From an uncultured Lachnospiraceae bacterium (lineage in GTDB: Bacteria; Bacillota; Clostridia; Lachnospirales; Lachnospiraceae): a stretch of 64,000 nt of DNA. Of the stretch, positions 2,137 through 18,069 are shown piece by piece. How positions within the stretch are numbered: position 1 is the stretch's first letter; the number at the start of each line of letters is the position of its first letter. Location of the stretch: assembly GCA_947629525.1 (NCBI GenBank), contig CANREB010000002.1:62001-126000 (forward strand), in the 5' to 3' direction. Below the pieces are notes generated by a model. It was not told the origin of the DNA. It saw nothing but the letters and a program-made list of their open reading frames with translations, and did no database searches. The position numbers and the translations under genes were made by a program.

Positions 2137-2811
2137 TTATCTCTTATAAAAATCATGACCGCCATATGAGAATAAGAAGGTAAGATTGTTGTCAAACCAT
2201 TTTGCGTTTTCGGCGGATGTGTATTTACGCGCCATAAAAAATAATGCCCCGTTCGAGACATCCTCGCCTCTGAGCGCGCTGTATACTACTTCTTTCGTTT
2301 CCGCAGAAATCGCAACATTATTTATAATTCCGTTCGAGACAGGGGAAAACTGCGTGACATTTCGCGACTGCTGATAGACAACATCTGTTATATTATTGGG
2401 GAACTGTTTGTTTCTGACGCGGTTTATAATAACGTTCGCCACCAGAAGCTTGCCGCGCCTGTCCTCGCCTCCTGCCTCAGCCTGTACTATTTTCATAAGG
2501 GTCTCAATGTCGGCATCCGTCGCCTTTATACAATACGGCGCCTCCAGTGTATCATAACTGATAACGCGCTGTATCGATGCTCTCGACTCTATCTGTGCCT
2601 TGCAGCTTTGGCTGCTGACGTTCTGTGTCTGTACATATGCCTCCACAGGCTCAAAACCGTATACTGTATCTCCTCTTGACAGAATAAGCGCAAACGCGCA
2701 GGCTATATTAGCGAGTAACAATAAAAAGAAATTTTTTGAATACATAAGCTGATATATTAAGTCCTTTCTTAATATGCTAATATTTGTTTTTAACCTTTTA
2801 TGGTTGTCCAT
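2137..2811 (-). CDS. SleB-type cell wall hydrolase, membrane-anchored
   Basis: A 224-residue protein with one hydrophobic segment (about residues 27-44) and a C-terminal domain from about residue 98 to the end. That domain matches the Hydrolase_2/SleB fold: the catalytic-region glutamate in IVQAEAGGEDRRGK, the motif VANVIINRVRNKQFPNNI, then QFSPVSNG and ALFFMAR-Y near the end. Family members are lytic transglycosylase-like enzymes acting on spore cortex or vegetative peptidoglycan; this sequence alone does not show which. The first ATG lacks a clear ribosome site. An internal ATG at residue 23 (2743-2745), just before the hydrophobic segment, has AAAGGA 15 bases upstream and is a plausible alternative start. 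Confidence 0.8.
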   Translation of the reverse strand: MDNHKRLKTNISILRKDLIYQLMYSKNFFLLLLANIACAFALILSRGDTVYGFEPVEAYVQTQNVSSQSCKAQIESRASIQRVISYDTLEAPYCIKATDADIETLMKIVQAEAGGEDRRGKLLVANVIINRVRNKQFPNNITDVVYQQSRNVTQFSPVSNGIINNVAISAETKEVVYSALRGEDVSNGALFFMARKYTSAENAKWFDNNLTFLFSYGGHDFYKR

Positions 2812-2877: not shown

Positions 2878-2897
2878 TGGGCTGCCTAAGCAGCCCA
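2878..2897 (-). terminator. Intrinsic terminator of the kinase/FHA operon
   Basis: A perfect 8-bp GC-rich stem (TGGGCTGC/GCAGCCCA) with a 4-base loop. On the minus strand it is followed by TTTATAATATT. It lies directly after the last gene of the nine-gene operon. Confidence 0.75.
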
Positions 2898-2908
2898 CTC
2901 AAATGTTT

Positions 2909-4522
2909 TTATTCCCAGTAAATGCGGTATTCTGAAGAACCTATTAAAAGTATGTCGTCTTTCTCAACCTTATATTCCCCTAATACGGGAACGCCGTTTG
3001 CATATGTACCGTTTGTTGAATTTTCATCCCTTACATATACATTTCCGTCCCTGTAGATAAGTGAACAATGCTTTCCGGACAAAGCGCTGTCGTCAGCTAA
3101 TGACAACTGGCACTCTTTGTTTCTTCCTATCAGCGCCTCTCCCTTCAAAGTTATCTGATAACTCTTATCCTCGTTGGGACCGACTTTATATAATGTAACC
3201 TGTATCCTGCCTTTACCCTTTTGTGCCTGAGTGCCTGAGCTTCCACCCGAATCGGTTCCCGGCGCCATTGTCATATCGGATGAAGGCGGCTGCCATGAAA
3301 CTTCCGCGCTGCCGTAATTCTCATTGTACAGCTCTTTGTCTGCCTGATTTGATTCCGGCTGTTTTTTCCCGCTAAGCAGTACAATGATAAGAATGATTAT
3401 AACTATAACCACGCCTATGCCGCCAAATACTATATATTTGCTTTTTTCATTTTTATTACTTACTTCAACAGTCCCTGTCTCTGTTGTTTCCTGCTCTCCT
3501 TCGCTTCCCTCTTTTATAATGTAATTAATATCTCTTTTTGATGCCGCCTCTATAGCTTCTTTGATATTTCCGGCAGGCACGGTAATACCATCGGTTGCTT
3601 CCTTTGTCCCGTCTGACAGTGATACCTCTATCCTGACGGTATCATCGCCCATTTCCTTGATGCCGTCAAGGCTCGCTTTCAGGATAAGGCTTGTCTGAAG
3701 TCTTGTTTTTATTTTTCCGCACACATCATCATAATCGTATGACTCATCAAGCAAAGGCATATAGCAGTCTCCGCCCGCGGAATTTCTCGCAAAACTTCCA
3801 AGTATCTTTGTGCTTTCTTCCTCATTTTTGAGGTTTTTTCCCTTCAATGCCACGGTAAATATAGGAATATGGCTGTCCTTTACAGCGTCCTGCGCTTCTT
3901 TTTCAGTAATTCCTTTTTTCTGATCATCCTCGCCGTCAGAGAAGATCAAAAGACACCTTTTTTTGTTGACCTGCTTGTCTGTCTTTAACTCATTGAGCGC
4001 CTCCGTAATGCCGTAATACAAGTTCGTATCTTCGCTGCTGATACGCTCAATGCCTTCGATATTTTCTTTCAGCTTTGCCGTATCCGTCAGAAAACCTGAT
4101 GAAGACACGTCATTTCCCATCGTGGTAATGCAGACATTATCGTTCCCGCCCTTTGACTCTACAAGTTCCGTAAGTATTTTCTTGGTCTGTTCGATACCGT
4201 CATCTGTCATAGAACCCGAAATATCAATAAGGCAGAGGTATGTTACCGCCTCATCCGCATCTGAAAAAGATTTTACCTCTTCTATCTCCAACTTGTTCTT
4301 ACCTATAAGAAGCAGGCTGTCGGTAAGAAGAGTGTCAAACTTTCCGTCTGTATTCTGATTGACATATACCTGAATATATCCGTCAGGTAATACTTCGTAC
4401 TGGTCGATGCCAATCTGCAGCGTATCTTCCGCATAAGCTCTCTGCCAGTTTCCGAGGCACAGCAGTATACCCGTCAGCACAAATATAAAAATTTTTATTT
4501 TACATTTTCTTAAGCTTTTCAT
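2909..4522 (-). CDS. VWA-FHA transmembrane protein
   Basis: A 537-residue protein. Residues 1-31 form a signal peptide ending AYAED. A von Willebrand A domain covers about residues 92-275 with a complete MIDAS start (DISGS at 100-104) and a later SDGEDD. A transmembrane helix lies near 366-386, and a C-terminal FHA domain covers about 455-535 with all canonical pThr-binding residues (IGRN, SGKHC, NSTNGTY). The VWA domain would face outside and the FHA domain the cytosol. It is the last gene of the operon, 31 bp after a PP2C gene, with an AAGGAGA ribosome site. An outside adhesion or assembly domain linked to a phosphothreonine reader suggests it reports or executes the output of the kinase upstream. 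Its partner is unknown. Confidence 0.85.
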   Translation of the reverse strand: MKSLRKCKIKIFIFVLTGILLCLGNWQRAYAEDTLQIGIDQYEVLPDGYIQVYVNQNTDGKFDTLLTDSLLLIGKNKLEIEEVKSFSDADEAVTYLCLIDISGSMTDDGIEQTKKILTELVESKGGNDNVCITTMGNDVSSSGFLTDTAKLKENIEGIERISSEDTNLYYGITEALNELKTDKQVNKKRCLLIFSDGEDDQKKGITEKEAQDAVKDSHIPIFTVALKGKNLKNEEESTKILGSFARNSAGGDCYMPLLDESYDYDDVCGKIKTRLQTSLILKASLDGIKEMGDDTVRIEVSLSDGTKEATDGITVPAGNIKEAIEAASKRDINYIIKEGSEGEQETTETGTVEVSNKNEKSKYIVFGGIGVVIVIIILIIVLLSGKKQPESNQADKELYNENYGSAEVSWQPPSSDMTMAPGTDSGGSSGTQAQKGKGRIQVTLYKVGPNEDKSYQITLKGEALIGRNKECQLSLADDSALSGKHCSLIYRDGNVYVRDENSTNGTYANGVPVLGEYKVEKDDILLIGSSEYRIYWE

Positions 4523-4553
4523 CTCTTTATGCTCTCCTTTTAAGACACTAAAA

Positions 4554-5285
4554 TTATATGATCCAAATCGCGATAGCCGAGTTGTTGTCGTTCTCCTTCT
4601 TTGCTTTCTTATTAAGATATTGACGCATTTTGTTGATCCAGTCCTGCGGCGTTTCGGCTTCGGCTAGGGTCTGTTCCATTTCTTCCTCTGTGACATACTC
4701 CCAAAATCCGTCCGTACACAGCAAAAAAGCATTGGAAGCATTTTTATCAAAATGAATGGTCTTTGTTTCAGCCTTAACATCGTCTGATTTCCCGATTGCC
4801 TTCAAAAGCCTGCTTCTGTCTTCGTGAAAGCGGATGTCTTTCAACTCGATTTCTCCTGTCAGAACCGCCATTCTTGAAACGCTGTGGTCGAACGTATAAA
4901 ATACGCACTTGCCGTTTTCAAAATGATATATACGGCTGTCGCCCAAATGAGCCATATGCGCCGTCGCCCGTGTTTCATTTACACACAGCACGGCAAGCGT
5001 CGTCTTCATTTGGCACTGTTCGTTCTGCATTTCCATTACATCTTTATTTGCCTTGTGAAACCATTCAACCATAAGTTCTTCCGTGACAGGCATATCGTCA
5101 GGCATCCCGAGACAACACTCTTTAACTGCCGCTACCGCTGCCTTGGACGCCAGATCGCCCTGTCCATGTCCGCCCAGACCGTCGGCGATGACAGCATACG
5201 CAGCATTTTCTCTCACAGCAAATGCCCCGCTGTCCTCGTTGTATTCTCTTCCGCCCTGATTTGTATAACCATTCCCAACAATCAT
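4554..5285 (-). CDS. PP2C-family protein phosphatase (first of two)
   Basis: A 243-residue cytosolic Ser/Thr phosphatase, the usual length for bacterial Stp/PrpC enzymes. The metal-binding and catalytic motifs are intact: REYNEDSGAF near residue 15, IADGLGGHGQGD near 34, GDSRIYHF near 117, CTDGFWEYV near 191 and the terminal DNNSAIAIW. In these enzymes two or three Mg2+/Mn2+ ions held by aspartates activate water to remove phosphate from Ser/Thr. It sits 21 bp after a second, different PP2C gene in an operon with a transmembrane kinase, so the likely substrates are the kinase and its targets. Confidence 0.92.
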   Translation of the reverse strand: MIVGNGYTNQGGREYNEDSGAFAVRENAAYAVIADGLGGHGQGDLASKAAVAAVKECCLGMPDDMPVTEELMVEWFHKANKDVMEMQNEQCQMKTTLAVLCVNETRATAHMAHLGDSRIYHFENGKCVFYTFDHSVSRMAVLTGEIELKDIRFHEDRSRLLKAIGKSDDVKAETKTIHFDKNASNAFLLCTDGFWEYVTEEEMEQTLAEAETPQDWINKMRQYLNKKAKKENDNNSAIAIWII

Positions 5286-5306
5286 ATTACGCTTCCTATT
5301 CTTTAT

Positions 5307-6170
5307 CTAACATATTTCCATCATAATCGCTGTATAGTTATCCTGATTAGGCTTCCTTTTAGCCTCTATCTGCATCCCTATCTGCATCATTGCCTTGCCC
5401 GCAGGATACTCCATCAGAGCTGCAAGCTCTTCATTATCAAGCGTATTATACACTCCATCCGAGATAAGCAGTACCCTATCGCCCTCAAACAATTCAAGCG
5501 CCTCCTGATTGCAGTCGATCTTCTCAAGGCATGCAATGCCGATATAGCTTGTCAGCGCATTCCTCTGCGGGTCATTCAGCGCTTCCTCCAATGGTATCTC
5601 ACCTGCTTCAACCTTATCCTGAAGATCCGCCGCATAGTTATGCTCTTTGTTCAACTGAACGATCTCTCCGCCGCGATAAAGCAGGATATGGCTGTCGCCT
5701 ACCGATACCCAGTGCATTTTCCTGTCCTTAACAACTGCCGCGACAAGTGTAGAGCCACTTGATGTATCGGTATCCGACAAAACCTCCCTGACTTCCATGT
5801 TGGCGTTTTCAGCCATATCAGTCATATTGTCAGGCATGTTTTCCGTCATATCATGAGTATCAAAGTAATTAAGACATGAAATTATCGTCGCCATGCTTGC
5901 CCTTTCACCGTCAGACAATCCGCCCATTCCGTCCGCAACTATAGCCATGATACCCTTATCTTTGATGACTTCTTCCTTTAGTTCCGAAACGCCGAAAGAG
6001 TCCTGCTGCATGCTTCTCTTACCAATACCATGCACCTTCCCGATAACAATACCGCTTCCCTCCGGCGTTTCCATCAGATATGCCTTCTGAAGGCCTAAAT
6101 CGACTGTTACTTCACTTTGACTGTTCTTCTTCTTTTTAATGAAGCCCTTCTCTTTTATTCTTTTTCCCAT
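5307..6170 (-). CDS. PP2C-family protein phosphatase (second)
   Basis: A 287-residue phosphatase with a basic N-terminal extension of about 45 residues rich in lysine before the PP2C core. Visible motifs are GKRSMQQDSFGV, VADGMGGLSDGERA, SVGDSHILLYRGG, ISDGVYNTL and the final NQDNYTAIM, so the acidic metal ligands are present. The start overlaps the end of the upstream FHA gene by 16 bases, which suggests translational coupling. The two PP2C proteins differ clearly in loop lengths and in the extension, so this is not a recent duplication. The lysine-rich extension could bring it to the membrane or to an acidic partner (inference). Confidence 0.92.
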   Translation of the reverse strand: MGKRIKEKGFIKKKKNSQSEVTVDLGLQKAYLMETPEGSGIVIGKVHGIGKRSMQQDSFGVSELKEEVIKDKGIMAIVADGMGGLSDGERASMATIISCLNYFDTHDMTENMPDNMTDMAENANMEVREVLSDTDTSSGSTLVAAVVKDRKMHWVSVGDSHILLYRGGEIVQLNKEHNYAADLQDKVEAGEIPLEEALNDPQRNALTSYIGIACLEKIDCNQEALELFEGDRVLLISDGVYNTLDNEELAALMEYPAGKAMMQIGMQIEAKRKPNQDNYTAIMMEIC

Positions 6171-6763
6171 TCAAACTTTTCTCCGCATAAAGGCATAAAT
6201 ACAAGTTCTGTCTTACCGATAACGAGCTTATCATATGCTTTTAGTTCCACCGTTTGGAAAATCGCTTTATCGTTCACCCTGACTATGCTTCTTCCGTCTC
6301 CGGGCGAAAAATAATAATTTTTGTCTGTCGCATCGTATGTGATGATAGCCTGATTTTCCCTTGAGATAGTTTCATCTCCACGAATGCAGATATCCATCTT
6401 TTCACTGCGCCCGACATAATTGTTGTCGGTATGTATTCTGTAATCTCTTCCTTTTTCTTTGCCTGACACGCATACGAGCCAGCCGACAACAGGGTCTATT
6501 CCCATATCCGTCTGAATAAGCGCTACCGTTCTTCCCTCATCGTCGCCGCTTGACTTCTGTACCGCTTCAAACAACGGTCTTGTTACATTATTTTCCGAAG
6601 ATGAATTTGGCATTACAGGCATTGTCACTCCATTATTCCCTGACGACCCTGTATTGCCGAACGCCATAGTTACCCCTACATTTCCTTCATTGTTGCAATA
6701 AGGACACTCCGAATGGATAGACACGTCGTAATAATGTCCTCTTTCGCATTTTCTCATTTCCAT
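6155..6763 (-). CDS. FHA-domain protein with N-terminal zinc-ribbon motif
   Basis: A 202-residue soluble protein if it starts at the ATG at 6761-6763, which has AGGAGG 11 bases upstream; an upstream in-frame start at 6823 would overlap the previous gene. Residues 1-25 carry C-x2-GHYYD and CPYC, a knuckle-like zinc site. A low-complexity Asn/Gly/Ser linker follows to about residue 95, then an FHA domain from about 105 to 195. The domain has the GR of the loop (VGRSEK), but the usual S-x-x-H is S-R-E-N and the N-G-T turn is missing, so classical pThr binding is doubtful. It overlaps the next PP2C gene by 16 bases. Confidence 0.8.
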   Translation of the reverse strand: MEMRKCERGHYYDVSIHSECPYCNNEGNVGVTMAFGNTGSSGNNGVTMPVMPNSSSENNVTRPLFEAVQKSSGDDEGRTVALIQTDMGIDPVVGWLVCVSGKEKGRDYRIHTDNNYVGRSEKMDICIRGDETISRENQAIITYDATDKNYYFSPGDGRSIVRVNDKAIFQTVELKAYDKLVIGKTELVFMPLCGEKFEWEKE

Positions 6764-6791
6764 ACCTGATACAGCCTCCTTTATCATATTA

Positions 6792-8729
6792 TTATTTGTA
6801 CAGCAGAATATCCTGACCCGCAAAATTCAGATACATCGTATCTCCATCTACCTCATATCTGACATCAAATCCCGTTTCGTCGCTCACATTTTCCGTGAAC
6901 ATTCCCCACGTTAATTCAAATCCGTCATATTCCCATTGTAAATGCAATGTGTGATCATCAACTACGCTGCATTCAAATTTGGCGTAGTCGATCGCCCTGC
7001 CGTTTATCGTGCAGTATGCCATTCCGTCTTGGGTAAAAGTAATACCGTCCGCCATGCTTTCCTTAAAAATGGCGATATCTCCCAAAACAGCAACGTTATC
7101 TATGCTGTTCAACAAAATATTCTTTATATTGAACCTGCCGTCACACTGCCATGCGCCATAATATGACTGACCCTGCTCTCCGGCACTCTCGCTTGCAATC
7201 TGCTCGTTAAACATCTGCGCCGCGCCGCCCGACGTTGCAAAGAGCGCCGCAAACATAACGGCAAGTACGATGGCACAGGCGATATAAACATTTTGTCCCG
7301 ACTCCTCGATGCCGTCGATTTCATTCGTCCTTCTGCCGTACTGCATATTAGCGTCAAGCGCGTTATTATTGTTTTTGCTGACAGATACTTTATATGTATT
7401 TTCCTCCGATGCAAGATAAAACTCCGCGCCGTCGTTTAAAACATATGCCCTGCCGGCTTCAAGCTTCTCGCCGTTTTTCCAAAAAGTACCGTATGACGAA
7501 TTTCTGTCGATCAGCACATAATCCTCGCCCTGCTTCTTTATCTCGCAGTGAATGGAACTTATACCATTTGTGTCGCCTGCATATTTTACGCTGCACGAGG
7601 CATCGCGTCCGAAAACTATCGACTGGTTGGAACATACGAATTTCTTTCCGCCATGTATGCCTGATATTCCGAATATCTCAGCTCTTCCCGCATAGTTAGC
7701 CGCAATCTTGCTCTCCCATTTGCGCTTGTCCGCCCTTGCCTGCTCCGATATCTCCACTGCCTGCTCGATACCCTTTCTCGCGATAAAAAGAAGCAAAGCC
7801 CATGAAATGATAGTCAGGATTATATATTTTCCCTGATATACATATAAAAATGTATACAATGATACCGCTACATCATTATCCCAAAAACGGACGAAAAGAT
7901 CTGTCAGGTCATAATCCCACAGTACGGCGATAAGGTAAGTACCTGTCAGACAGATTATAAACAGACTGTTGCCTAAATGTCTGCCCTTTAACGGCTCTTT
8001 ACCCTTGGCAAGCGCAAGCGCGCCTCCGACTGCCGCCATCCATACTATGTTACCTCCCAGTACCATAATTATCCTTACAAGGACAATACCCATAACGCCG
8101 TCAAGCATCCCGATATATTCTGCCACATAAAACAGATCGCTTGCCGTCTTTAATATTGAATATCCGGCGCCGACTGCCGCTCCGATCAATACGCCGTTAA
8201 GACCATATCCTCTGCTCTTCTTACGCAGAAAAATACATATAAGAAGCAGTTGTGATATCTCCGACAGCAGCGGCATTGTAAATGAAGAAACATCATTATA
8301 ATCCATGCCCGTAATGTCGGAAATAAAGAAGATGACCATAAAGCATATTATTCCGCTGAATGCCGCAATATAAAACACATCCAAAATCGATATGTTCCGC
8401 GGGATATTTAACTCCCATATGAAAATAAGCATGATAAGCGGGATCATATACGGAATAACGCTTACAAGCAGCATATCGCCAAATCCATACAGATAACTGC
8501 TCGCAAGTATCAATATCATCATAACGATACAGTATATAAAAAATTTGTAAAACAGAAACGGCGGCTGCCATTCTTTTATCATATCGCTTTCATACGGTAC
8601 GTTTCCCGGAAGCCCCGACATTATCTGCCTTTCCTTCTCCTCTTTTGTCTTTGCTGCGTTAAAGCCCGAAAAAATCTTTGACCACTTAAAATTTTTGCTT
8701 CTCAGCATTTCGCTTGTGTCCTGTTTCAT
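6792..8729 (-). CDS. PrsW-like membrane domain fused to FHA and an outside domain
   Basis: A 645-residue protein in four parts. Residues 1-58 are cytosolic and basic. Residues 60-330 form about eight to nine membrane helices whose order and loops resemble the PrsW/CPBP-type intramembrane protease family (GVLIGAAVGAGYSILK, then GGNIVWMAAVGGALALAKG). Residues 357-450 are an FHA domain (FGRDAS, SSIHCEI, SSYGTFW). A further helix lies near 480-500, followed by an extracytoplasmic C-terminal domain of about 125 residues containing YYGAWQCDGRF. The expected Glu-Glu pair appears as S-E and the expected His as Asn, so it may be a pseudoprotease. Start: ATG with GAGAGG, behind a conserved mini-hairpin. 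Confidence 0.7.
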   Translation of the reverse strand: MKQDTSEMLRSKNFKWSKIFSGFNAAKTKEEKERQIMSGLPGNVPYESDMIKEWQPPFLFYKFFIYCIVMMILILASSYLYGFGDMLLVSVIPYMIPLIMLIFIWELNIPRNISILDVFYIAAFSGIICFMVIFFISDITGMDYNDVSSFTMPLLSEISQLLLICIFLRKKSRGYGLNGVLIGAAVGAGYSILKTASDLFYVAEYIGMLDGVMGIVLVRIIMVLGGNIVWMAAVGGALALAKGKEPLKGRHLGNSLFIICLTGTYLIAVLWDYDLTDLFVRFWDNDVAVSLYTFLYVYQGKYIILTIISWALLLFIARKGIEQAVEISEQARADKRKWESKIAANYAGRAEIFGISGIHGGKKFVCSNQSIVFGRDASCSVKYAGDTNGISSIHCEIKKQGEDYVLIDRNSSYGTFWKNGEKLEAGRAYVLNDGAEFYLASEENTYKVSVSKNNNNALDANMQYGRRTNEIDGIEESGQNVYIACAIVLAVMFAALFATSGGAAQMFNEQIASESAGEQGQSYYGAWQCDGRFNIKNILLNSIDNVAVLGDIAIFKESMADGITFTQDGMAYCTINGRAIDYAKFECSVVDDHTLHLQWEYDGFELTWGMFTENVSDETGFDVRYEVDGDTMYLNFAGQDILLYK

Positions 8730-8745
8730 ATTTTCCTCTCATTCT

Positions 8746-8757
8746 GCCGAAATCGGC
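8746..8757 (-). repeat. Hairpin/ribosome-site module, copy A
   Basis: GCCG-ATTT-CGGC on the minus strand, followed by AGAATGAGAGGAAAAT and the ATG of the PrsW-like/FHA gene. The 23 bases from CGGC to ATG are identical to those before rnfA (copy B). Confidence 0.6.
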
Positions 8758-8762
8758 GTCGT

Positions 8763-9167
8763 TTATTTAACTAAAAAGGTGTTGTTCGGATTTCCCACAT
8801 AAAACCCGTCTCCGGGTCCGAGATAATACAGCGTGTTCGGCGACAGCTTTTCACCGTTGTCGCGGAAAGTGCCATATCTGGACGCAAGATCGGTCACGGC
8901 GATTTTTTCACCGTCTTTTATAACCTTGCAATGCACTGAACTTACGCCTTTTTCGTCGTTTGGATAAACTATGCTGCACTTAGAAGCATCCCTTCCGATA
9001 ATGACCTCATTTCCAATCGGAAATGTCTGTCCTTTGTACATTCCGCCCATTCCGATCAGGTATCTCTCGTCACCATTGTTCTCAGGCTCGGAATGTCTTG
9101 TGCTTTTTATGTACGCCGCGATCGCTATGAGAAAAATCACTAGTACGATCCATATATAATTTCCCAC
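8763..9167 (-). CDS. Single-pass membrane FHA protein
   Basis: A 134-residue protein: one N-terminal membrane helix (about residues 4-20), then a cytosolic FHA domain from about 38 to the end. It has IGRDASKC, SSVHC and SRYGTF. The usual N of the N-G-T turn is Tyr, exactly as in the FHA domain of the next gene (SSYGTF), so these two readers form a subclass. The protein is essentially an FHA domain tied to the membrane, which would place a phosphothreonine reader next to the kinase. It lies between the propeller gene and the PrsW-like gene, in the same direction. Confidence 0.85.
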   Translation of the reverse strand: MGNYIWIVLVIFLIAIAAYIKSTRHSEPENNGDERYLIGMGGMYKGQTFPIGNEVIIGRDASKCSIVYPNDEKGVSSVHCKVIKDGEKIAVTDLASRYGTFRDNGEKLSPNTLYYLGPGDGFYVGNPNNTFLVK

Positions 9168-9205
9168 TTCAATATCCTCCTCCCTTAAAATTATTGTTAT
9201 TTTAA

Positions 9206-10252
9206 TTAATAAACTGCAGCCACGTTTTTGATCAGGTCGCCTTCAACGTTAAAACGCCATATCAGCTTACTGCTCCCCGAATATGTCATATAATACGCAC
9301 CGTTTATAATATCGATGTAATACGGTATTCCGTTGCTTGGAAAACCGCTGTTTACCGTTTCATATACGCCATTTGACAGAGTGCTCAGATCTTTTGTCCT
9401 TATTATCTTCGCCACATCCTGATTTGCCCAGTAATCAGTTGACACTGTCATATAAAAGTAATTGCCGATTGGCATGATATACGCCATTCCCGAAATATCA
9501 AAAGGCACAGGATATCTGTATAGAACCTGCATAGTGTCTTTATCCGCAACAGTGACATACGAATTTGTTCCGGATGGGAACAGCACAAGATCTCCCGCTA
9601 TCGTGAATGAGCGGACATAATAGTTTGCAAGCTCTTTTATATGGCGCATCTCCTGAATACAGACTATCCCCGTAGCACTGTCTTTCTTAAGAATATACAT
9701 ATCACCTGTCATTGAACTCCACACAAAAAAGCTGTCTGTTTCCTCGTCGTACTTAATGTAGTGCGGTCTTTTCCCTATGCCGTCAAGACGCTGCGTATTG
9801 CAGAGTATCCCGCCCTTCTGTTCAAAAACCAGTACTCTGTTGTTTTCAGTGTCAGCGACTAAATATGCTTGTCCGTCACTGGCGATGCCATGCGGCTGAT
9901 TTACATTTTTTGTCATAACTCTCCAGTTTCTCAGCGGCTTGCCAATAGAGTCGGAATACAATACCTGATTATTATAACAGTCCACAATAAAATAATAACC
10001 GCCCTGTTTCGTTATCTGCGTAGGTACATTCAGACTGCTGCACTGATTATACGGATTACCATATGACGAACTTCCCACCGATAGCTGCACCGCCGGATAC
10101 ATTCCCATATCAAACACCGTGCTTGTCTCGTAATCTCCCTTTACACTTATATTTACCTGCGGAAGCTCTGCCGCCGACACTTTAAGAGCGCAGCATATAA
10201 CAGACAGGCATCCGAATATTGCTATAAATTTTCTAAAAATACTGTTTTTCAT
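9206..10252 (-). CDS. Secreted NHL/YncE-like beta-propeller protein
   Basis: A 348-residue protein with a signal peptide (about residues 1-28, ending SAAELP). The rest reads as repeated beta-propeller blades: YFIVDCYNNQVLYSD, AYLVADTENNRVLVF, SFFVWSSMTGDMYIL and YVTVADKDTMQVLYR all follow the blade pattern with D-x-x-N-N-x-V. No catalytic site is evident; such propellers usually bind proteins, glycans or nucleic acids. Its ATG overlaps the stop codon of the phosphoesterase upstream (ATGA), so the two should be made together. A secreted sensor-like protein inside a kinase operon suggests a ligand or partner for one of the extracytoplasmic domains. Confidence 0.75.
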   Translation of the reverse strand: MKNSIFRKFIAIFGCLSVICCALKVSAAELPQVNISVKGDYETSTVFDMGMYPAVQLSVGSSSYGNPYNQCSSLNVPTQITKQGGYYFIVDCYNNQVLYSDSIGKPLRNWRVMTKNVNQPHGIASDGQAYLVADTENNRVLVFEQKGGILCNTQRLDGIGKRPHYIKYDEETDSFFVWSSMTGDMYILKKDSATGIVCIQEMRHIKELANYYVRSFTIAGDLVLFPSGTNSYVTVADKDTMQVLYRYPVPFDISGMAYIMPIGNYFYMTVSTDYWANQDVAKIIRTKDLSTLSNGVYETVNSGFPSNGIPYYIDIINGAYYMTYSGSSKLIWRFNVEGDLIKNVAAVY

Positions 10253-11346
10253 TGTTCTTTCCTCTCAGGTACAACATTAATTATTCCTATACAGCCCTGA
10301 TATGCCGGCGAAAAAATATGCTGCGGCACATATTCCGTGAGCATTCCGTCCCATTGCGCATGCAGATGCCCTGCCAGCACCTGACAGACAGGCGTATCAT
10401 CCGCATAAATCATATCAAGATACCTTTTTGTAACATCATCAGGCACATAGTCGCCATCCGTCGCGTCATAATCCCAGTAATACACTTTATTGCGCACTTC
10501 CATTGAAAGTTCTTCCAAAGATTTGTCGATCTTCGAAGCATACGGTACATGCGTCACTGCGATGACAGGTTTGCCCGAATTGTATTGTCCGTTTATAATG
10601 TCATACTGTCCCTGCGGCATATTCAATGTCGAACCGTTGACACCTACAACCATAAACTCGCCAAAGTCAAGATATTTCCTGTCAAGATCGTCCCCGTCTA
10701 TCTCTTTATGCACCTCATGCGCGTCCGGCTCTGTAAAGCTGTCGCCGCCATACCAATATCCATAATCATGGTCAGCTCTTATATACATTATCGGTACTGA
10801 CTCATTCAGCTTGTTAAACTCTTCCCTGAACGCTTTAAGATTTGACTCGCTGCAATAATCCATCATATCGCCGCCGAATATTATCCCGTCAAAATCACCG
10901 TAATTTAAGAATTTAACTACCTCCTGCCATAACGCGGCACTGCGCACGCCATCGTCGGTAACAAAAACTGAATCCCGAAGGGCAATATCATCAAGAAATT
11001 CTTCCTTGACATCCCACGACGCCTCAAAATCAGTTATCATATGCAGGTCGCTTACCCATGCAAGCTTATAGGCGCGGCTTAGACCATCAATTTCCACAGT
11101 GACTTCTTCTTCTTGGAAATCGTAGTCAGGTTCCGGATATATTACTGCCTGCGTTTCCTGCTCTGTCTCTGTGGTTGTCTCTTCCTCAGTTTCGACAGCT
11201 TGGGTCGTTTCCGTAATATCACTTTCTATCTCTGACCAGTCGATTACTGCCGGCTTTTCGGAACCTGACTTTTTCAGCATGATAAGGATAAGGACAATCA
11301 TGATCAGCAGAGAAACACACAATAATATCTTCATTATTTTTTTCAT
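10249..11346 (-). CDS. Membrane-tethered calcineurin-like metallophosphoesterase
   Basis: A 365-residue protein with an N-terminal membrane anchor (about residues 4-24), a Glu/Thr-rich spacer (about 40-80) and a phosphoesterase domain that would lie outside the cell. Metal-binding motifs are SDLHM (D100, H102), FGGDMMDY (D160), RADHDYG (191-196), AVTHVPY and AGHLHAQW. The third motif is normally G-N-H-D/E; here the metal-binding Asn is Asp. The substrate cannot be read from the sequence. It is translationally coupled to the propeller gene and follows the kinase gene, so it is probably part of the same envelope system. Confidence 0.85.
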   Translation of the reverse strand: MKKIMKILLCVSLLIMIVLILIMLKKSGSEKPAVIDWSEIESDITETTQAVETEEETTTETEQETQAVIYPEPDYDFQEEEVTVEIDGLSRAYKLAWVSDLHMITDFEASWDVKEEFLDDIALRDSVFVTDDGVRSAALWQEVVKFLNYGDFDGIIFGGDMMDYCSESNLKAFREEFNKLNESVPIMYIRADHDYGYWYGGDSFTEPDAHEVHKEIDGDDLDRKYLDFGEFMVVGVNGSTLNMPQGQYDIINGQYNSGKPVIAVTHVPYASKIDKSLEELSMEVRNKVYYWDYDATDGDYVPDDVTKRYLDMIYADDTPVCQVLAGHLHAQWDGMLTEYVPQHIFSPAYQGCIGIINVVPERKEQ

Positions 11347-11388
11347 AAATTAAGTTACTTCCCTGAAATCATATTTTATGTTATTTAA

Positions 11389-13527
11389 TCAAGGTCTTGA
11401 AAAATTGCTTTTCATATATTCACGAACTGCTTTTCTTATCGATGAATAATCCCCATAATAATCATTATCCACATTGTAAATATATATGAAATTTATCATA
11501 TCCGCATTCCCCATATAAGACATGTCAACTCTGAGAATAGCGCATATCTGCTCATACCAGCCGTAAGCCGCGGCATCGCCGTATGAGGCAAGATAATATA
11601 CCATAACGGGATTGTAATCTGTTTTTTCCAACTCGTCATAAATCTTGACCACTGCCTGCGCCGCGCTCAAACTCTCGATCTGACTTTGAAGATTAAGCGT
11701 ATATGCCGCTATATACCTGAGTCTTAAAGGGTCTTCCACATCATCTTCATCAAAGAGTCCTGTCTGATCGGCTCCTTCAAGAAGATTCCACAATGCGCTT
11801 CTTGAAACGACTCCGTTCTGATCCATCAAATCTATTGCCGTCTCGTCAAAATTAACTATCAGGCGCTGCTTATAACTCTGCGCGATCTCATTTTTCTTGT
11901 CACTTATCCTGCTGCTATCGATTGACATTGATTTTTCCTGCAGTCTGCCGGAAATCTCCATAGCGTCGTCAAGCTCCATACTCATCTGACTGTATAATGC
12001 CGGGGAAACGTCTTCCATCGCTTCAAGAAATTCTACATGTTCAATCGCCTTATCAACATATACAGGATATACCGCAGCAACTTTATCGGATATCATATCT
12101 GCGATATCATATTCATCCGCCAATTCACAATATTCTTCCAAAACGTTTTTCAGATTTTCATAACTGTTGTCCTGCAAAGCCTGTGTATTTATTTCCTCTA
12201 TTCTCTGCAAGATCGCACCGTCGGCTTCCTGAACCTCCTGAACTTCCGAAACGTTCTGCTCCTGTGCATCATCCTGAGCCGCAACGGTTTCTCCGCCGAT
12301 CATCGATACTGCTGCCGCGTCCTGCGCACTATAATTGTCTTTTCCTTTTGGAATCAATATGGCTATCACAACTATTACGGCAACCGCTGCGGCACATAAT
12401 ATTCCCATATTCTTTTTGCGGCTTAACGCCCCCTGTGCCTCCTGACTGCCTGTATGGGATTGTGTCTGCGTCCTTTCCAAAGTACCCGTGTTCTCCACGT
12501 TTTCTATATTTTCCCTGAAAGCAGTATGATGTTCCGTGTGCGTATTTTCCGCGGCTGACGTCACTCCGTACAAAGCGCTGTACAGTTCGTTCATACTCTG
12601 TATTCTGTTTTCCGCGACTACAGCCATACCTTTTTTTAACGCCGCCTCCTGCTCCCTTGAAATAGCTATGCCCATCTCGCTTGGCATCTGTAATTCGTCA
12701 TTTCTCAGGCGCTCCATTGACTCTATCGGCGTTACTCCTGTAATACACTTGTATATTGTGGCGCATAGCGCATACACATCCGACCATGGTCCCTGATTGC
12801 CGCGTGTACGGTACTGTTCCTCAGGCGCATACCCCGGTTTTAAAAGTACAGACTTACTCTTCTCATTATCTTCGCCAAAGCTTCTTGCCGCACCGAAGTC
12901 CAATACTTTCATATTGCCGTCCTTTAAAAGCATAATATTATCGGGGCTTATATCCCTGTGTATAAGTCCTTGGGCGTGAACTTCGCTCAACGCGGTAATG
13001 ATTGGTTTCATAGCCGGTATAAGCTCGTCGGAAGGTATCTTTCCGCCGCGCGACTTTAAATATTCTTTCAATGTCTGCCCTTCAAGATACTCCTGAACGA
13101 TATATACCGTGTTGTTTTCCTGAAAAAAGTCTTTTACTCCAACGACACCCGGAAGATGGGCACACCTTGCCAAAGCCTTAGCCTCTGCCAGAAAATTATT
13201 GCGCCATTTATTGACAATATCCGCGTTTTGGTTTGAATATGACGTCACCATCGTTGTTGTCGCGGATTCCCTCGTGACAAATCCATTCGGGTAAAACTCT
13301 TTGATGGCAACGCGTATCTCCAGGTTGATGTCCATTCCTATATAAGTAATTCCAAATCCGCCCTCTCCTAATACATCGCCTATCAGATATTTACCCTGAA
13401 GAATGGAAAAAGGTCTGAGCTGATGCTGCAGCTCCGCGATCTGCTGTATATTTTTCCCGCAATGCGGACATATTTGGGAATTATTACCCTCCCGCATACA
13501 GTGCGGGCATAAATTATTTATATCCAT
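11389..13527 (-). CDS. Transmembrane Ser/Thr protein kinase with N-terminal zinc ribbon
   Basis: A 712-residue kinase. Residues 7-23 hold C-P-H-C and C-P-H-C pairs forming a zinc ribbon. The kinase domain (about 47-320) is complete: glycine loop LGEGGFG at 53-59, VAIK with K76, catalytic HRDISPDN with D192, DFG at 210-212, and APEEQY in the activation segment. A Thr/Glu/His-rich linker leads to one membrane helix (about 375-393). The extracytoplasmic domain of some 315 residues has no PASTA repeats and matches nothing I recognise. The start is the ATG at 13525-13527 with GGAGG; an in-frame ATG 18 bases upstream lacks a ribosome site. It is the first gene of the operon and the likely writer for its four FHA readers and two PP2C erasers. 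Confidence 0.93.
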   Translation of the reverse strand: MDINNLCPHCMREGNNSQICPHCGKNIQQIAELQHQLRPFSILQGKYLIGDVLGEGGFGITYIGMDINLEIRVAIKEFYPNGFVTRESATTTMVTSYSNQNADIVNKWRNNFLAEAKALARCAHLPGVVGVKDFFQENNTVYIVQEYLEGQTLKEYLKSRGGKIPSDELIPAMKPIITALSEVHAQGLIHRDISPDNIMLLKDGNMKVLDFGAARSFGEDNEKSKSVLLKPGYAPEEQYRTRGNQGPWSDVYALCATIYKCITGVTPIESMERLRNDELQMPSEMGIAISREQEAALKKGMAVVAENRIQSMNELYSALYGVTSAAENTHTEHHTAFRENIENVENTGTLERTQTQSHTGSQEAQGALSRKKNMGILCAAAVAVIVVIAILIPKGKDNYSAQDAAAVSMIGGETVAAQDDAQEQNVSEVQEVQEADGAILQRIEEINTQALQDNSYENLKNVLEEYCELADEYDIADMISDKVAAVYPVYVDKAIEHVEFLEAMEDVSPALYSQMSMELDDAMEISGRLQEKSMSIDSSRISDKKNEIAQSYKQRLIVNFDETAIDLMDQNGVVSRSALWNLLEGADQTGLFDEDDVEDPLRLRYIAAYTLNLQSQIESLSAAQAVVKIYDELEKTDYNPVMVYYLASYGDAAAYGWYEQICAILRVDMSYMGNADMINFIYIYNVDNDYYGDYSSIRKAVREYMKSNFSRP

Positions 13528-13573
13528 ATTTTCCTCCGACTGCATATATTAATTACACATTTTGCATCTCCAA

Positions 13574-13602
13574 ATTTTACCGAAAATGACAACTTTTGTT
13601 AA
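13574..13602 (-). promoter_or_regulatory. Putative promoter of the kinase/FHA operon
   Basis: Minus-strand TTAACA (13597-13602), a 17-bp spacer and TAAAAT (13574-13579), about 47 bp before the kinase start. It is divergent from the AP2-gene promoter at 13671. Confidence 0.5.
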
Positions 13603-13730: not shown

Positions 13731-14528
13731 TTGAAAGGTGTATACAAAGCGCAAAAAAAAGACGGCAGTATATACTGCCGCGCCTCTTTTACATACAAAA
13801 ACAAACATATCAGCTTGGGAAGTTTTGATACGGAATTAGAAGCCGGCTATGCTTACGCCGAGGCGGGAAGACTTGTCGGCGACACCGGTATAACGATAGA
13901 TGATTACACGGAAAACTCCGCTCTTGCGTTTGAAAAATGGGTCATAATCATCAATTTCCGCGATAACGGACTGTATTTCCCCACTCCTATCTATGCGCGC
14001 CCGAAATTTTTTTATTACTATTTATCGCCCGCGTATGTCCTTAAATTTGACATAGACGATCTGTTTTACTTTTCTTCGCACAAGATAATGAAAAGGCAGG
14101 GGCATCTTTTTGTTGCGGATTATGGTATGCAGGTGAGCATTTTAAGCAGATATGATATCAAGAGCTTTGCTGTGGCAGGGCGTGATTATGTGTTCTTAAA
14201 CGGCGACGACACGGATTTCCGCCGTCAGAATTTAAAGATAATAAACAGATATCAGGGCGTATACGCGACTACTTCAAAAGGACGCACAAAGTATAAGGCA
14301 AAGATCAATGTCCCGGGGTATTATGTGATTGGAACATACCACAGCGAAACGGAAGCGGCGATCGCCTACAACAAGGCAATCGACATCCTTAAGGGAAACG
14401 GTGTAAACAGGAATTACACCCCGAATTATGTGGACGGTCTTTCCCCGTCGGCATACGCCGATATATATTCTAAATTAAAAATCTCTGACAAAATAATAAA
14501 TTATAACAAAAACAGGGACGGCATTTAG
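13731..14528 (+). CDS. Two AP2-like domains flanking a degenerate HNH core
   Basis: A 265-residue protein with a TTG start; GGGTGA lies about six bases upstream and no ATG fits. Residues 2-45 form an AP2-like DNA-binding unit (GVYKAQKKDGSIYCRASF, LGSFDTELEAGYAYAEA), and residues 181-225 form a second one (GVYATTSKGRTKYKAKI, GTYHSETEAAIAYNKA). Between them, GDDTDFRRQNLKII matches the last part of an HNH nuclease core (normally HH-x-D-G...N-x-R-x-x-N-L), but both histidines are gone. The overall plan resembles phage or intron HNH-AP2 homing endonucleases. Here it is a lone chromosomal gene with its own promoter, so a domesticated DNA-binding role is likelier than cutting (inference). Confidence 0.75.
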   Translation: MKGVYKAQKKDGSIYCRASFTYKNKHISLGSFDTELEAGYAYAEAGRLVGDTGITIDDYTENSALAFEKWVIIINFRDNGLYFPTPIYARPKFFYYYLSPAYVLKFDIDDLFYFSSHKIMKRQGHLFVADYGMQVSILSRYDIKSFAVAGRDYVFLNGDDTDFRRQNLKIINRYQGVYATTSKGRTKYKAKINVPGYYVIGTYHSETEAAIAYNKAIDILKGNGVNRNYTPNYVDGLSPSAYADIYSKLKISDKIINYNKNRDGI

Positions 14529-14536
14529 CAGTTTTT

Positions 14537-15862
14537 TCATTTTTTGCTGTAATCGACAAAGCTGATGCTAAGCGCGGCTTCGCCGTCTATACCGCTGACG
14601 CTTCCGTCCGTATCATACTGCCACATGTCAAACTCATACGGATATTTCGGTTCATCGCCGTCTTCCGCATACCATATGTCATAACCGTCAAGCTCTTCAA
14701 GATCGACCATAGTAAGAAGCCATTCAAGATCTCCGTAAAGCATAGGCGTATATCCCGCATCGGATATTTCATCCATGAATGCGATGGCGATACGCGTCCT
14801 GTCCTTTACGTCAAGCGATTCGATACGCGCCATATCGTCTTCGACATTTTCCATGACAAAGACTATCGGATAGTTTACATCGTAATCCTCTATCGCTTCC
14901 AAGAGCACTTCCGCTTCTTCCCTTGCCTCTGCCCTTGTGACTGCCTGTGAGCAGAAATACACGCCTGTATTAAGCTTTGCTTTCTGTGCGCCTTCAAGGT
15001 TGTCCTCAAGGTTTTCATCCATAACGATATTTCCGCTGCTGTAGCCTCTTGCGCCTACCTTTATCATACAGAAATCGCATTTTGCTTTTTTAAGCTTTGC
15101 AAAATCCACATCACCCTGTTCGGCAGATATATCGACTCCAAACCACGATGCGGTCTTGCCGTTTTCGATGTATCTCATTATCGGATTGTCATATTTGAGG
15201 TTATCATAATTATAATTATTCCTGTCAAGATCATCATCTATATCGACCCATTCTTTCGTACCGTCGGAATGAGTGACACGGATGCTTGTCATTTCCTCTT
15301 CATCCTCGTCCTCTTCATCTTTATCCGTGGACTTATCATTTGATTTATCAGTATTTTTTTCATTTGCCTTATCGGACTCGCTCATATCCTCTCTTTCAGC
15401 CATATCATAAACGGACGTCTTGCCTGACACAAGTTCGTCTGCCGTTGTTGTCGTCTCTTTCTCGCTGCTTTTTTCCGACGAACCTCCGACTGTCTCGCCC
15501 GTAGTCTGATTGGTGACAGTGCCGTTGCCGCTGTTTGAATTTGAAGAGCTCTGTCTGCCCGTATCGGGAAGAGTCCATATATCAAGTTGATCCGAAGTCA
15601 GTTTGCTGCTTGATATAACGTTGTCCGAAGCAGCCGTGCCCGAAGATTTGCTTTCTTCAAGCATGCGCTCCTCCCTCTGCGCCACAGCCTGTCTGTATCC
15701 GCTTCCGTCAGAGCTTTTCTTTGAGCCGTTTGCCCAAAACACAAGTGCCGTAACGGCAAAAATAACAGTTGACATTATAAGCGCCATATATATAAGCGTC
15801 ATATTAGAGCCCGAACCGCGCTCATCGTTGTCATCGTAATCGTCATCGTCATAAAATTTCAT
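14537..15862 (-). CDS. GH25-like membrane protein with altered active site
   Basis: A 441-residue protein from the ATG at 15860-15862, which has GGAGG seven bases upstream. The N-terminus is acidic (KFYDDDDYDDNDE), then a membrane helix (about residues 19-42), a long Ser/Asp/Lys/Glu-rich linker to about 195, and a GH25 lysozyme-like domain to the end. Family landmarks are FGVDISAEQGDVDF, CMIKVGARGY, GVYFCSQAVTRAEA and FDMWQYDTDGSVSGI. GH25 muramidases normally carry an L-D-I-E catalytic strand; here it reads F-V-M-E. The later V-D-L-N is A-A-L-S. Only the first Asp and the Glu survive. It lies 19 bp behind rnfB on the same strand, so it may be read through from the rnf operon. Confidence 0.8.
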   Translation of the reverse strand: MKFYDDDDYDDNDERGSGSNMTLIYMALIMSTVIFAVTALVFWANGSKKSSDGSGYRQAVAQREERMLEESKSSGTAASDNVISSSKLTSDQLDIWTLPDTGRQSSSNSNSGNGTVTNQTTGETVGGSSEKSSEKETTTTADELVSGKTSVYDMAEREDMSESDKANEKNTDKSNDKSTDKDEEDEDEEEMTSIRVTHSDGTKEWVDIDDDLDRNNYNYDNLKYDNPIMRYIENGKTASWFGVDISAEQGDVDFAKLKKAKCDFCMIKVGARGYSSGNIVMDENLEDNLEGAQKAKLNTGVYFCSQAVTRAEAREEAEVLLEAIEDYDVNYPIVFVMENVEDDMARIESLDVKDRTRIAIAFMDEISDAGYTPMLYGDLEWLLTMVDLEELDGYDIWYAEDGDEPKYPYEFDMWQYDTDGSVSGIDGEAALSISFVDYSKK

Positions 15863-15881
15863 AATAAATCCTCCCTGCCGC

Positions 15882-16682
15882 CTATGACAGTTCAAGTATT
15901 GCCTTTTTAGGGCATTTCTCCTTACATGCCCTGCATCCTGTACATTTGCTTTGGTCTATATGTGCCAGAAAATTTTCTACCGTGACAGCTCCCTGTGGGC
16001 ATGCCTTTACGCACAATCCGCATCCGATGCAGGAACTTTGGCATGCTTTCATCGCCACAGGTCCTTTATCTTTTGAACTGCATGCAACTGCCGTTTTTGC
16101 CGGATACGGTATAAGTTCTATAAGCCCTTTCGGACATGCAGCTATACATTTACCGCATGCCTTGCATTTTTCCCTGTCAACGACAGCTATGCCGTTTTTT
16201 ATATGTATTGCCCCAAAGGGACACGCCTTTACACAGTTTCCGTAACCTACACAGCCGTAGTTGCACGACTTGGCGCCGCCGTCCGGAACATACTGCATCA
16301 TACTGCAGTCCTGTACACCCGAATATTCATAGTTGCGTGTCGTCTTTTCACAGTCGCCCGCGCACTTTACAAAAGCGACATTTCTCACGGCTTCCCCTGC
16401 CTCGACTCCCATGATGGCGGCAATTTTATTCCCGACTGCCTCGCCTCCGACGGGGCATGCATTGACAGGCGCTTCGCCTTTTGCTATCGCAGCCGCAAGC
16501 CCCGAACATCCCGCAAATCCGCATCCGCCGCAATTATTGCCGGGAAGTGCTTCAAGAACCGCCGCTTCTCTTTCATCAACTTCAACCTTAAACACTATGC
16601 TCGCTATCCCTAAAAAAATACCTAAAAGCAAGCCTACTATGCCGACTACTGCCACAGCAGTAATAATTGCTGAAATGTTCAT
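15882..16682 (-). CDS. rnfB: Rnf complex subunit B (ferredoxin-type iron-sulfur protein)
   Basis: A 266-residue subunit of the membrane ferredoxin:NAD+ oxidoreductase. An N-terminal membrane helix (residues 5-30) is followed by the C-GGC-G-F-x-G-C cluster motif of RnfB (NNCGGCGFAGCSG near residue 50). Several [4Fe-4S] ferredoxin motifs follow (CVKACPFGAIH, CGKCIAACPKGLIE, CGLCVKACPQGAVT, CRACKEKCPKKAI). The subunit takes electrons from reduced ferredoxin. I chose the ATG at 16680-16682 because it follows GGGGGT; a TTG four codons upstream is possible. Last rnf gene in transcription order, 18 bp after rnfA. Confidence 0.96.
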   Translation of the reverse strand: MNISAIITAVAVVGIVGLLLGIFLGIASIVFKVEVDEREAAVLEALPGNNCGGCGFAGCSGLAAAIAKGEAPVNACPVGGEAVGNKIAAIMGVEAGEAVRNVAFVKCAGDCEKTTRNYEYSGVQDCSMMQYVPDGGAKSCNYGCVGYGNCVKACPFGAIHIKNGIAVVDREKCKACGKCIAACPKGLIELIPYPAKTAVACSSKDKGPVAMKACQSSCIGCGLCVKACPQGAVTVENFLAHIDQSKCTGCRACKEKCPKKAILELS

Positions 16683-16700
16683 AAATACCCCCAAAAAACA

Positions 16701-17288
16701 TCATAACAAACCTGAGAAACCACAGAACGCGATTGCCATAAGCCCTGCCGTTATAAGCACGATAGGCATTCCTTTAAACGACTCGGGTATGTCATTATAC
16801 TCTATCTTCTCACGTATTCCTGCCAGAATAACAATCGCTATCAAAAATCCTGCCGCTGTTGAAAAACCGCTCACAATACTGAAACCTATGCCGTATTCTT
16901 TCTGAACATTCGTCAGCGCAACGCCCAAAACCGCACAGTTTGTCGTTATGAGCGGAAGATACACTCCAAGCGCCTGATAGAGCGACGGCACATATTTCTT
17001 AAGAAACATCTCCACAAACTGCACCAATGCGGCGATGACCAGAATAAACACGATCGTCTGCAGATATGTAATGTCAAGCGGTATCAGAATAAACTTATAT
17101 ATGACAGCAGTTACCCCCGATGCAAGCGTTATGACGAAAATCACGGCTCCGCCCATTCCTGCCGCCGTATTCACTTTTTTTGACACTCCCAAAAACGGGC
17201 ATAATCCTAAAAACTGGCTTAGCACCACATTACTGACTAACGATGAACTTATCATCAAAACCAGCAGATCCTGTACTACATCAAGCAT
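16701..17288 (-). CDS. rnfA: Rnf complex subunit A
   Basis: A 195-residue integral membrane subunit with about six helices, the standard length. It carries the family signatures VLSQFLGLCPFLGVS near residue 22 and LPLITTNCAVLGVAL near 108, where the paired cysteines bind an intramembrane iron-sulfur centre in RnfA/RnfE-type proteins. It acts with RnfE, RnfD and RnfG in electron transfer coupled to Na+ or H+ export. Its ATG is preceded by GAGAGG and by a mini-hairpin module (17305-17318) that also occurs before an unrelated gene. Confidence 0.96.
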   Translation of the reverse strand: MLDVVQDLLVLMISSSLVSNVVLSQFLGLCPFLGVSKKVNTAAGMGGAVIFVITLASGVTAVIYKFILIPLDITYLQTIVFILVIAALVQFVEMFLKKYVPSLYQALGVYLPLITTNCAVLGVALTNVQKEYGIGFSIVSGFSTAAGFLIAIVILAGIREKIEYNDIPESFKGMPIVLITAGLMAIAFCGFSGLL

Positions 17289-17304
17289 ATTTTCCTCTCA
17301 TTCT

Positions 17305-17318
17305 GCCGTCGATACGGC
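17305..17318 (-). repeat. Hairpin/ribosome-site module, copy B
   Basis: A 5-bp stem GCCGT/ACGGC with a 4-base loop, followed on the minus strand by AGAATGAGAGGAAAAT and the ATG of rnfA. From CGGC to ATG it is identical to copy A at 8746. Confidence 0.6.
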
Positions 17319-17320
17319 TT

Positions 17321-18052: not shown

Positions 18053-18069
18053 GTTATCCCTCCATTCCG

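Follow-up and report, generated by a model that had tools for sequence, protein, structure and literature searches.

A nine-gene kinase/PP2C/FHA operon of an uncultured Lachnospiraceae bacterium as a candidate membrane phospho-threonine switch with exchangeable layers

Hanks-type kinases phosphorylate threonine, FHA domains bind phospho-threonine and PP2C phosphatases remove it. Kinase, PP2C, FHA and VWA modules occur together in the PpkA/PppA/Fha regulators of the type VI secretion system (T6SS), the TerY-P triad is composed of a VWA protein, a PP2C and a zinc-ribbon kinase, and the Rv1747-type proteins are FHA-ABC transporters. PpkA itself carries the VWA domain (PMC1262709). Subtypes T7SSc to T7SSj of the type VII secretion system (T7SS), whose loci include genes for a kinase, a PPM phosphatase and an FHA protein, have also been published (Garrett et al. 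2024, PMC11217815), and the fusion of PrsW to FHA was noted earlier among signalling peptidases (Zhang et al. 2012, PMC3482391). Kinase/PP2C/FHA clusters, kinase-bearing T7SS loci and the PrsW-FHA fusion were, in short, already known. Here, a nine-gene operon combining such modules is described from an uncultured gut bacterium of the Lachnospiraceae (assembly GCA_947629525.1, contig CANREB010000002.1, positions 62,001 to 126,000), the whole stretch of 64,000 nucleotides being called the window hereafter. Judged from its sequence, this operon is proposed, with a probability of roughly 0.6, to be a membrane phospho-threonine switch with three exchangeable layers, namely an input, a core and an output.

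Nine open reading frames (ORFs) lie on the minus strand between 13527 and 2909, separated by gaps of 21-42 bp or joined by short overlaps. The nine same-strand genes of the original prediction are present in this layout, and the domains it had named are backed by motif checks and by Pfam matches to Pkinase, Metallophos, NHL, FHA, PP2C (twice) and VWA. The features are as follows:

13574-13602, minus strand: promoter-like site TTAACA-17-TAAAAT preceding the kinase gene, by itself not above chance
11389-13527, minus strand: kinase (KIN), with a zinc ribbon (two CPHC motifs), a Hanks-type kinase domain, a transmembrane helix and an all-helical outside domain
11389-12228, minus strand: outside domain of the kinase as modelled with AlphaFold2, 12 helices, mean confidence (pLDDT) 93.8
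10249-11346, minus strand: MPE, an N-terminal membrane anchor, a Thr/Glu-rich linker and a calcineurin-like phosphoesterase
9206-10252, minus strand: NHL, a signal peptide and an NHL-type propeller, overlapping MPE by 4 bp
8763-9167, minus strand: FHA1, an N-terminal transmembrane helix and an FHA domain (GR, SSVHC, YG for NG), with a GTG start
6792-8729, minus strand: pseudo-PrsW-FHA, seven PrsW-type transmembrane helices with lost catalytic residues, an FHA domain, a transmembrane helix and an outside beta domain
6155-6763, minus strand: ZNFHA, a zinc ribbon and a divergent FHA domain, the most conserved marker of the core
5307-6170, minus strand: PP2Ca, a Stp1-like PP2C phosphatase
4554-5285, minus strand: PP2Cb, a second, distinct Stp1-like PP2C phosphatase
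2909-4522, minus strand: VWA-FHA, a signal peptide, an outside VWA domain with a metal-ion-dependent adhesion site (MIDAS), a transmembrane helix (364-382) and a cytoplasmic FHA domain (GR, S..H, NG)
2879-2896, minus strand (read 2896-2879): possible terminator, an 18-nt GC hairpin GGGCTGC-TTAG-GCAGCCC with a weak T tract

Like the T7SSc-T7SSj clusters (PMC11217815), the operon gathers a membrane kinase, PPM/PP2C phosphatases and FHA proteins in one locus, and T7SSc adds a VWA protein to the likeness. However, the T7SSc VWA protein TscE is predicted to be cytoplasmic (PMC11217815) whereas that of the window is predicted outside, the separate FHA protein is DUF6382-FHA in those clusters (PMC11217815) and PrsW-FHA or zinc-ribbon-FHA here, and the genome of the window has neither EssC/TsxC nor WXG100 at the locus or elsewhere. 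The PASTA kinases PknB/PrkC with their phosphatase Stp share the combination of a Hanks-type transmembrane kinase with a Stp1-like PP2C, but the window kinase has no PASTA repeats and bears an N-terminal zinc ribbon, and it is accompanied by two PP2Cs and four FHA proteins. Relative to the T6SS regulators, the VWA domain is fused to FHA and not to the kinase, and no T6SS part was recognised among the ten genes scanned with Pfam, no search having been aimed at T6SS. All three protein classes of the TerY-P triad are found in the window, but without a TerY_C Pfam match, and the VWA protein has a signal peptide and a transmembrane helix before its FHA domain, so that it is predicted outside and not cytosolic. 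The previously noted PrsW-FHA peptidases (PMC3482391) resemble the operon in the order of a PrsW transmembrane domain followed by FHA, and relatives within the core match Pfam PrsW, whereas the window group has lost the catalytic residues and acquired an additional transmembrane helix and an outside beta domain.

The kinase, the PP2Cs and the VWA domain are intact as far as their motifs tell. The kinase retains K82, HRD196 and DFG216, the active-site motifs of both PP2Cs are complete, and the MIDAS of the VWA domain is preserved (DISGS100); kinase and phosphatase motifs and a phospho-threonine reader thus stand in one operon, as in a Hanks kinase/PP2C/FHA cluster. M7 (13527) is the probable start of the kinase, given that the homologues begin at this position and that the longer ORF assumed earlier contains a GGAGG Shine-Dalgarno sequence; the transmembrane helix of the kinase occupies residues 380-398, numbered on that longer ORF. 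The ZNFHA start was likewise corrected, to 6763 from 6823. The metal site of MPE, which in calcineurin-like enzymes reads DxH, GD, GNHD/E, H and GHxH, presents DLH, GGD, TH and HLH, with ADHD in place of GNHD in all four aligned members that carry the kinase, MPE and NHL (hereafter the triad); no PDB relative of MPE was found by sequence. The C-terminal domain of the kinase, MPE, NHL and the VWA domain are predicted to lie outside, in agreement with what had been proposed before.

A core of this operon recurs widely. Using ZNFHA as seed, 339 relatives were found in GTDB genomes, and the best 80 of the 339 loci, taken with up to 10 kb per side, span Lachnospiraceae, Oscillospiraceae, Bacillaceae, Comamonadaceae, Methylomonas, Synergistaceae, Acidobacteria, Rhodothermota and others; within the order, 33 of 295 genomes carry ZNFHA. 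Among the 51 well-covered loci, those with at least 17 kb of context and reached via ZNFHA, a kinase was present in all 51, a PP2C in 49 and at least two PP2Cs in 41, VWA and at least three FHA proteins in 35 each, and EssC in two, the kinase and PP2C content being above chance. Zinc-ribbon-FHA, two PP2Cs, VWA-FHA and a kinase are thereby a core that recurs in Bacillota, Pseudomonadota and other phyla. In the public annotation of an Azospirillum plasmid, genes for FHA, FHA, PP2C, PP2C, a trypsin-like peptidase and a kinase are consecutive, and the viral contigs searched held no relative. Two further arrangements were seen among the related loci compared (labelled L0xx, L1xx or L2xx): a ZNFHA relative on a Leisingera plasmid (L241, NZ_CP081085.1) lies with kinase, FHA and PP2C genes followed by two dynamin-family GTPases, and in two genomes of the same genus a small GTPase-like domain is fused to an FHA1-type FHA domain near zinc-ribbon kinases (L036 3529-4902; L038 12200-13390).

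Besides ZNFHA and VWA-FHA, most loci carry at least one larger FHA protein, often between the two PP2C genes, and this gene is an exchangeable output slot whose content depends on the lineage. Across 84 loci, the slot held trypsin-like-FHA in 33, PrsW-FHA in 21 (a count that includes the degenerate members of the window group), kinase-FHA in 14, ABC-2-FHA in seven and M48-FHA in two, so that an FHA-tethered membrane protease domain of trypsin-like, PrsW or M48 type was found in 49/84. The catalytic GxSG is kept in 27 of the 35 trypsin-like domains. FHA-FHA-ABC-2 proteins of the Rv1747 kind occupy the slot within seven core loci (L111, L125, L128, L107, L067, L039 and L090) and are absent from the window.

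The occupant of this slot in the window had been called PrsW-like, and its homology to PrsW-FHA proteins stands: 25 homologues align with it over the PrsW transmembrane region. Its catalytic residues are nonetheless gone, EExxK, E, GGH and H having become SEISQ, K, GGN and A, while they are kept in homologues outside the L049-L052 group. Seven of the nine homologues tested match Pfam PrsW (PF13367), whereas the window protein and its close kin L049 and L050 do not. A single-sequence search with this protein retrieved only FHA domains in 79 relatives, and profiles were required. For its C-terminal beta domain, a lipocalin or fatty-acid-binding identity was considered and is not claimed, given the weak likeness (best E 0.026, TM-score below 0.45, model pLDDT 79).

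The input side behaves as a second separable part. The outside domain of the kinase is modelled confidently as a helical fold without a PDB match (nothing at E <= 0.001 in the structure search, the best being 0.095), and Pfam holds no family for it. The earlier statement that it lacks PASTA repeats is borne out, since Pfam found none in the kinase, which scored 164 of the 450 bits required by the NCBIfam PASTA-kinase model. A single-sequence search with the outside domain alone found no relative among the 295 genomes of the order, and relatives were reached by profiles. The gene order kinase-MPE-NHL is retained in the window, L065, L069 and L094; L161 has NHL, MPE and a PP2C together with a kinase whose outside domain is related, and the contigs of L054 and L216, from one metagenome-assembled genome (MAG), break at the position of the triad. 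In L156-L160, L162 and L215, the outside domain seen in the window kinase is borne by a zinc-ribbon transmembrane protein without a kinase that adjoins MPE and usually NHL too, the relationship being supported by blastp E-values down to 2e-30 and an hhalign probability of 100%. The outside domain, MPE and NHL are therefore a unit separate from the core, each occurring without the other. Directly after NHL in L065, a gene with a signal peptide and RHS repeats begins and is cut off (10575-11261).

The phylogenies of the two parts disagree. In the tree of ZNFHA, PP2Ca and PP2Cb, the window groups with L049, L050, L052 and L053 (support 100/99), loci that lack MPE and NHL and have two kinases other than that of the window. 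All other triad loci make up a clade of their own (100/100), and a tree constrained to one triad clade was rejected (approximately unbiased, AU, test, p=2.5e-5). The nine genes as one inherited unit were thereby rejected, and the self-contained, closed nine-gene system proposed originally did not survive, as the histories of the core and of kinase-MPE-NHL differ and each is found without the other. The tree built from the outside domain, MPE and NHL likewise rejects placing all kinase-fused forms in one clade (p=5e-5; p=0.0015 when L161, which has a long branch, is removed). Because the trees reject both one triad clade and one kinase-fused clade, the sequences indicate that the joining of unit and core, or their separation, happened on more than one occasion. 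How often the kinase was fused or lost is uncertain, because only the combined alignment of outside domain, MPE and NHL rejects one clade, which neither MPE alone (p=0.175) nor the kinase domain alone (p=0.26) does.

It could be argued that the operon is the regulatory wing of a T7SS, in which EssC assembly is under the control of the kinase, the PP2Cs and the FHA proteins, the copy in the window having become detached from the secretion genes. The link is real for loci with the sensor unit of the window: in L069 and L094, which are among the few loci having its kinase outside domain, MPE and NHL and are two of its nearest equivalents in gene content, genes for EssC (FtsK/SpoIIIE plus FHA), YukD and WXG100 directly adjoin VWA-FHA, ZNFHA, PP2Ca, PP2Cb, kinase, MPE and NHL; in L111 EssC lies ~12 kb away, and published T7SS loci do contain genes for kinases, PPM phosphatases and FHA proteins (PMC11217815). 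However, it is not regular. EssC is linked in only two of the 51 well-covered loci, and of the 45 tested genomes that carry either the core or the MPE unit, just 11 have EssC above the cut-off. The core is, moreover, found in Pseudomonadota and further phyla, and in the MAG NALB_7813_21 a copy linked to T7SS (L094) coexists with another at which no T7SS genes are visible (L065). In the genome of the window itself, a 3.08-Mb draft that is 97.8% complete, there was no WXG100 match (PF06013) and the best EssC score was 107 bits against a cut-off of 778, in an FtsK/SpoIIIE-type frame of 886 amino acids; the operon is therefore independent of T7SS in this genome. The absence of an EssC-like ATPase and WXG100 noted at first thus extends genome-wide, and EssC/WXG100 genes beside homologous loci proved to be no regular feature, while the claim of an independent system holds for this genome. 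Altogether, a detached T7SS wing seems improbable.

Somewhat less improbable, though still unlikely, is a modified control of wall growth of the PknB/Stp type, in which the kinase would read peptidoglycan or another wall polymer and adjust wall synthesis while MPE and NHL process the polymer. A transmembrane Hanks kinase together with Stp1-like PP2Cs is what such a role would call for, a SleB-like cell wall hydrolase gene (2137-2811, minus strand) lies on the same strand 97 bp downstream of the operon, and MBOAT acyltransferase genes are found near the L059 and L060 loci; but neither PASTA nor any other wall-binding domain was found by Pfam, the hydrolase gene is outside the conserved core, and five further Hanks-type kinases encoded in the same genome could fill the role. 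An anti-phage or conflict system, with the kinase triggering a toxic output, would be suggested by the scores of the kinase domain against the PD-T4-6 and MAD6 kinase profiles and by the RHS-repeat gene after the triad in L065, yet these defence-profile matches are generic, limited to kinase and PP2C (123 of the 460 bits required for NCBIfam MAD6), eight of the nine proteins have no specific defence match and the window operon has no toxin domain, which makes this explanation very improbable.

The membrane phospho-threonine switch is thus preferred, and its working can be outlined as follows, where for the signal, the phosphorylation targets, the FHA assembly and the effect outside we infer from gene content and predicted topology. 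At the input, the helical outside domain, together with the anchored MPE and the secreted NHL, would monitor or modify an envelope component and so set kinase activity. In the core, the kinase would phosphorylate its own threonines as well as threonines in partner tails, FHA1, pseudo-PrsW, the VWA protein and possibly ZNFHA would assemble at the membrane by binding phospho-threonine through their FHA domains, and the two PP2Cs would reset the phosphorylation state. At the output, variable membrane proteins would be tethered by cytoplasmic FHA domains, and phosphorylation inside may in this way cluster or gate activities facing outside; this output would be an envelope protease in most relatives and, in the window, a PrsW scaffold that is dead as a protease and bears a beta domain outside, together with the outside VWA domain.

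Several observations weigh against this proposal. The FHA domain of ZNFHA, whose Pfam match reaches only E=0.001, just under the FHA cut-off, has neither the usual His nor the NG of the phospho-threonine site, and FHA1 and PrsW-FHA carry YG for NG; the phospho-threonine logic of the original prediction is upheld by the motifs, but its four FHA readers are not supported as stated. A VWA match is missing in 16 of the 51 well-covered loci, the output of the window has no recognisable enzyme activity, it is the position of the outside domain from which its sensing role is assumed, and the differing histories of unit and core could have arisen through loss instead of exchange.

Concerning the borders, the gene at 13731-14528 (plus strand) is divergent, so that the kinase gene is the first of the operon. 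One promoter and one terminator, as had been asserted, are plausible: a candidate site and a hairpin are present, but promoter-like sites were as frequent as in shuffled sequences (45 observed against 39.6, standard deviation 5.9), showing no enrichment, and the hairpin was not called in the terminator scan. By eye, the product of the divergent gene shows a repeated 'KYKA..N..G.YH....A..AY..A' pattern resembling AP2-type DNA-binding repeats, and 14537-18711 (minus strand) presents a GH25-like lysozyme gene with a transmembrane helix and linker, then Rnf-complex-like genes (ferredoxin-rich RnfB, RnfA/E-like membrane proteins). Elsewhere in the genome, contig C10 (L031 9061-14007) has a second, different kinase/PP2C/FHA set, composed of a PP2C, an FHA protein whose N-terminal region is receiver-like, and a kinase that has one transmembrane helix and lacks a zinc ribbon, and on contig C12 (L030 7560-17331) a Tad-pilus-like gene row (by eye, prepilin peptidase-like and secretion-ATPase-like proteins) ends in an FHA protein.

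Taken further, these loci may represent a class of kinase-controlled envelope switches that extends across phyla and has not been described before, a tentative proposal that we place somewhat short of even odds. One phospho-threonine core (zinc-ribbon-FHA, two PP2Cs, usually VWA-FHA, and a kinase) would accept plug-in sensors outside and membrane outputs tethered by FHA, the outputs being mostly envelope proteases but also ABC-2 exporters, kinases and, in places, T7SS. The version in the window would combine a dead protease as scaffold with a new helical sensor domain that has a phosphoesterase and a propeller as its partners. Neither the core with its FHA slot for proteases nor the separable outside-domain/MPE/NHL unit was found described in the literature searched, which mostly did not cover subscription journals. 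The proposal offers pieces that can be tested: a helical outside domain without a known fold match, paired with a phosphoesterase and a propeller with or without an attached kinase, and a protease family turned into a dead scaffold in one lineage. If it is true, several phyla would share a membrane switch through which threonine phosphorylation inside could control outside-facing proteases, transporters or binding domains, sensors and outputs would be exchanged like cartridges, and the many kinase/PP2C/FHA clusters that lack an explanation, like their scattered connections with secretion systems, would have a general reason.

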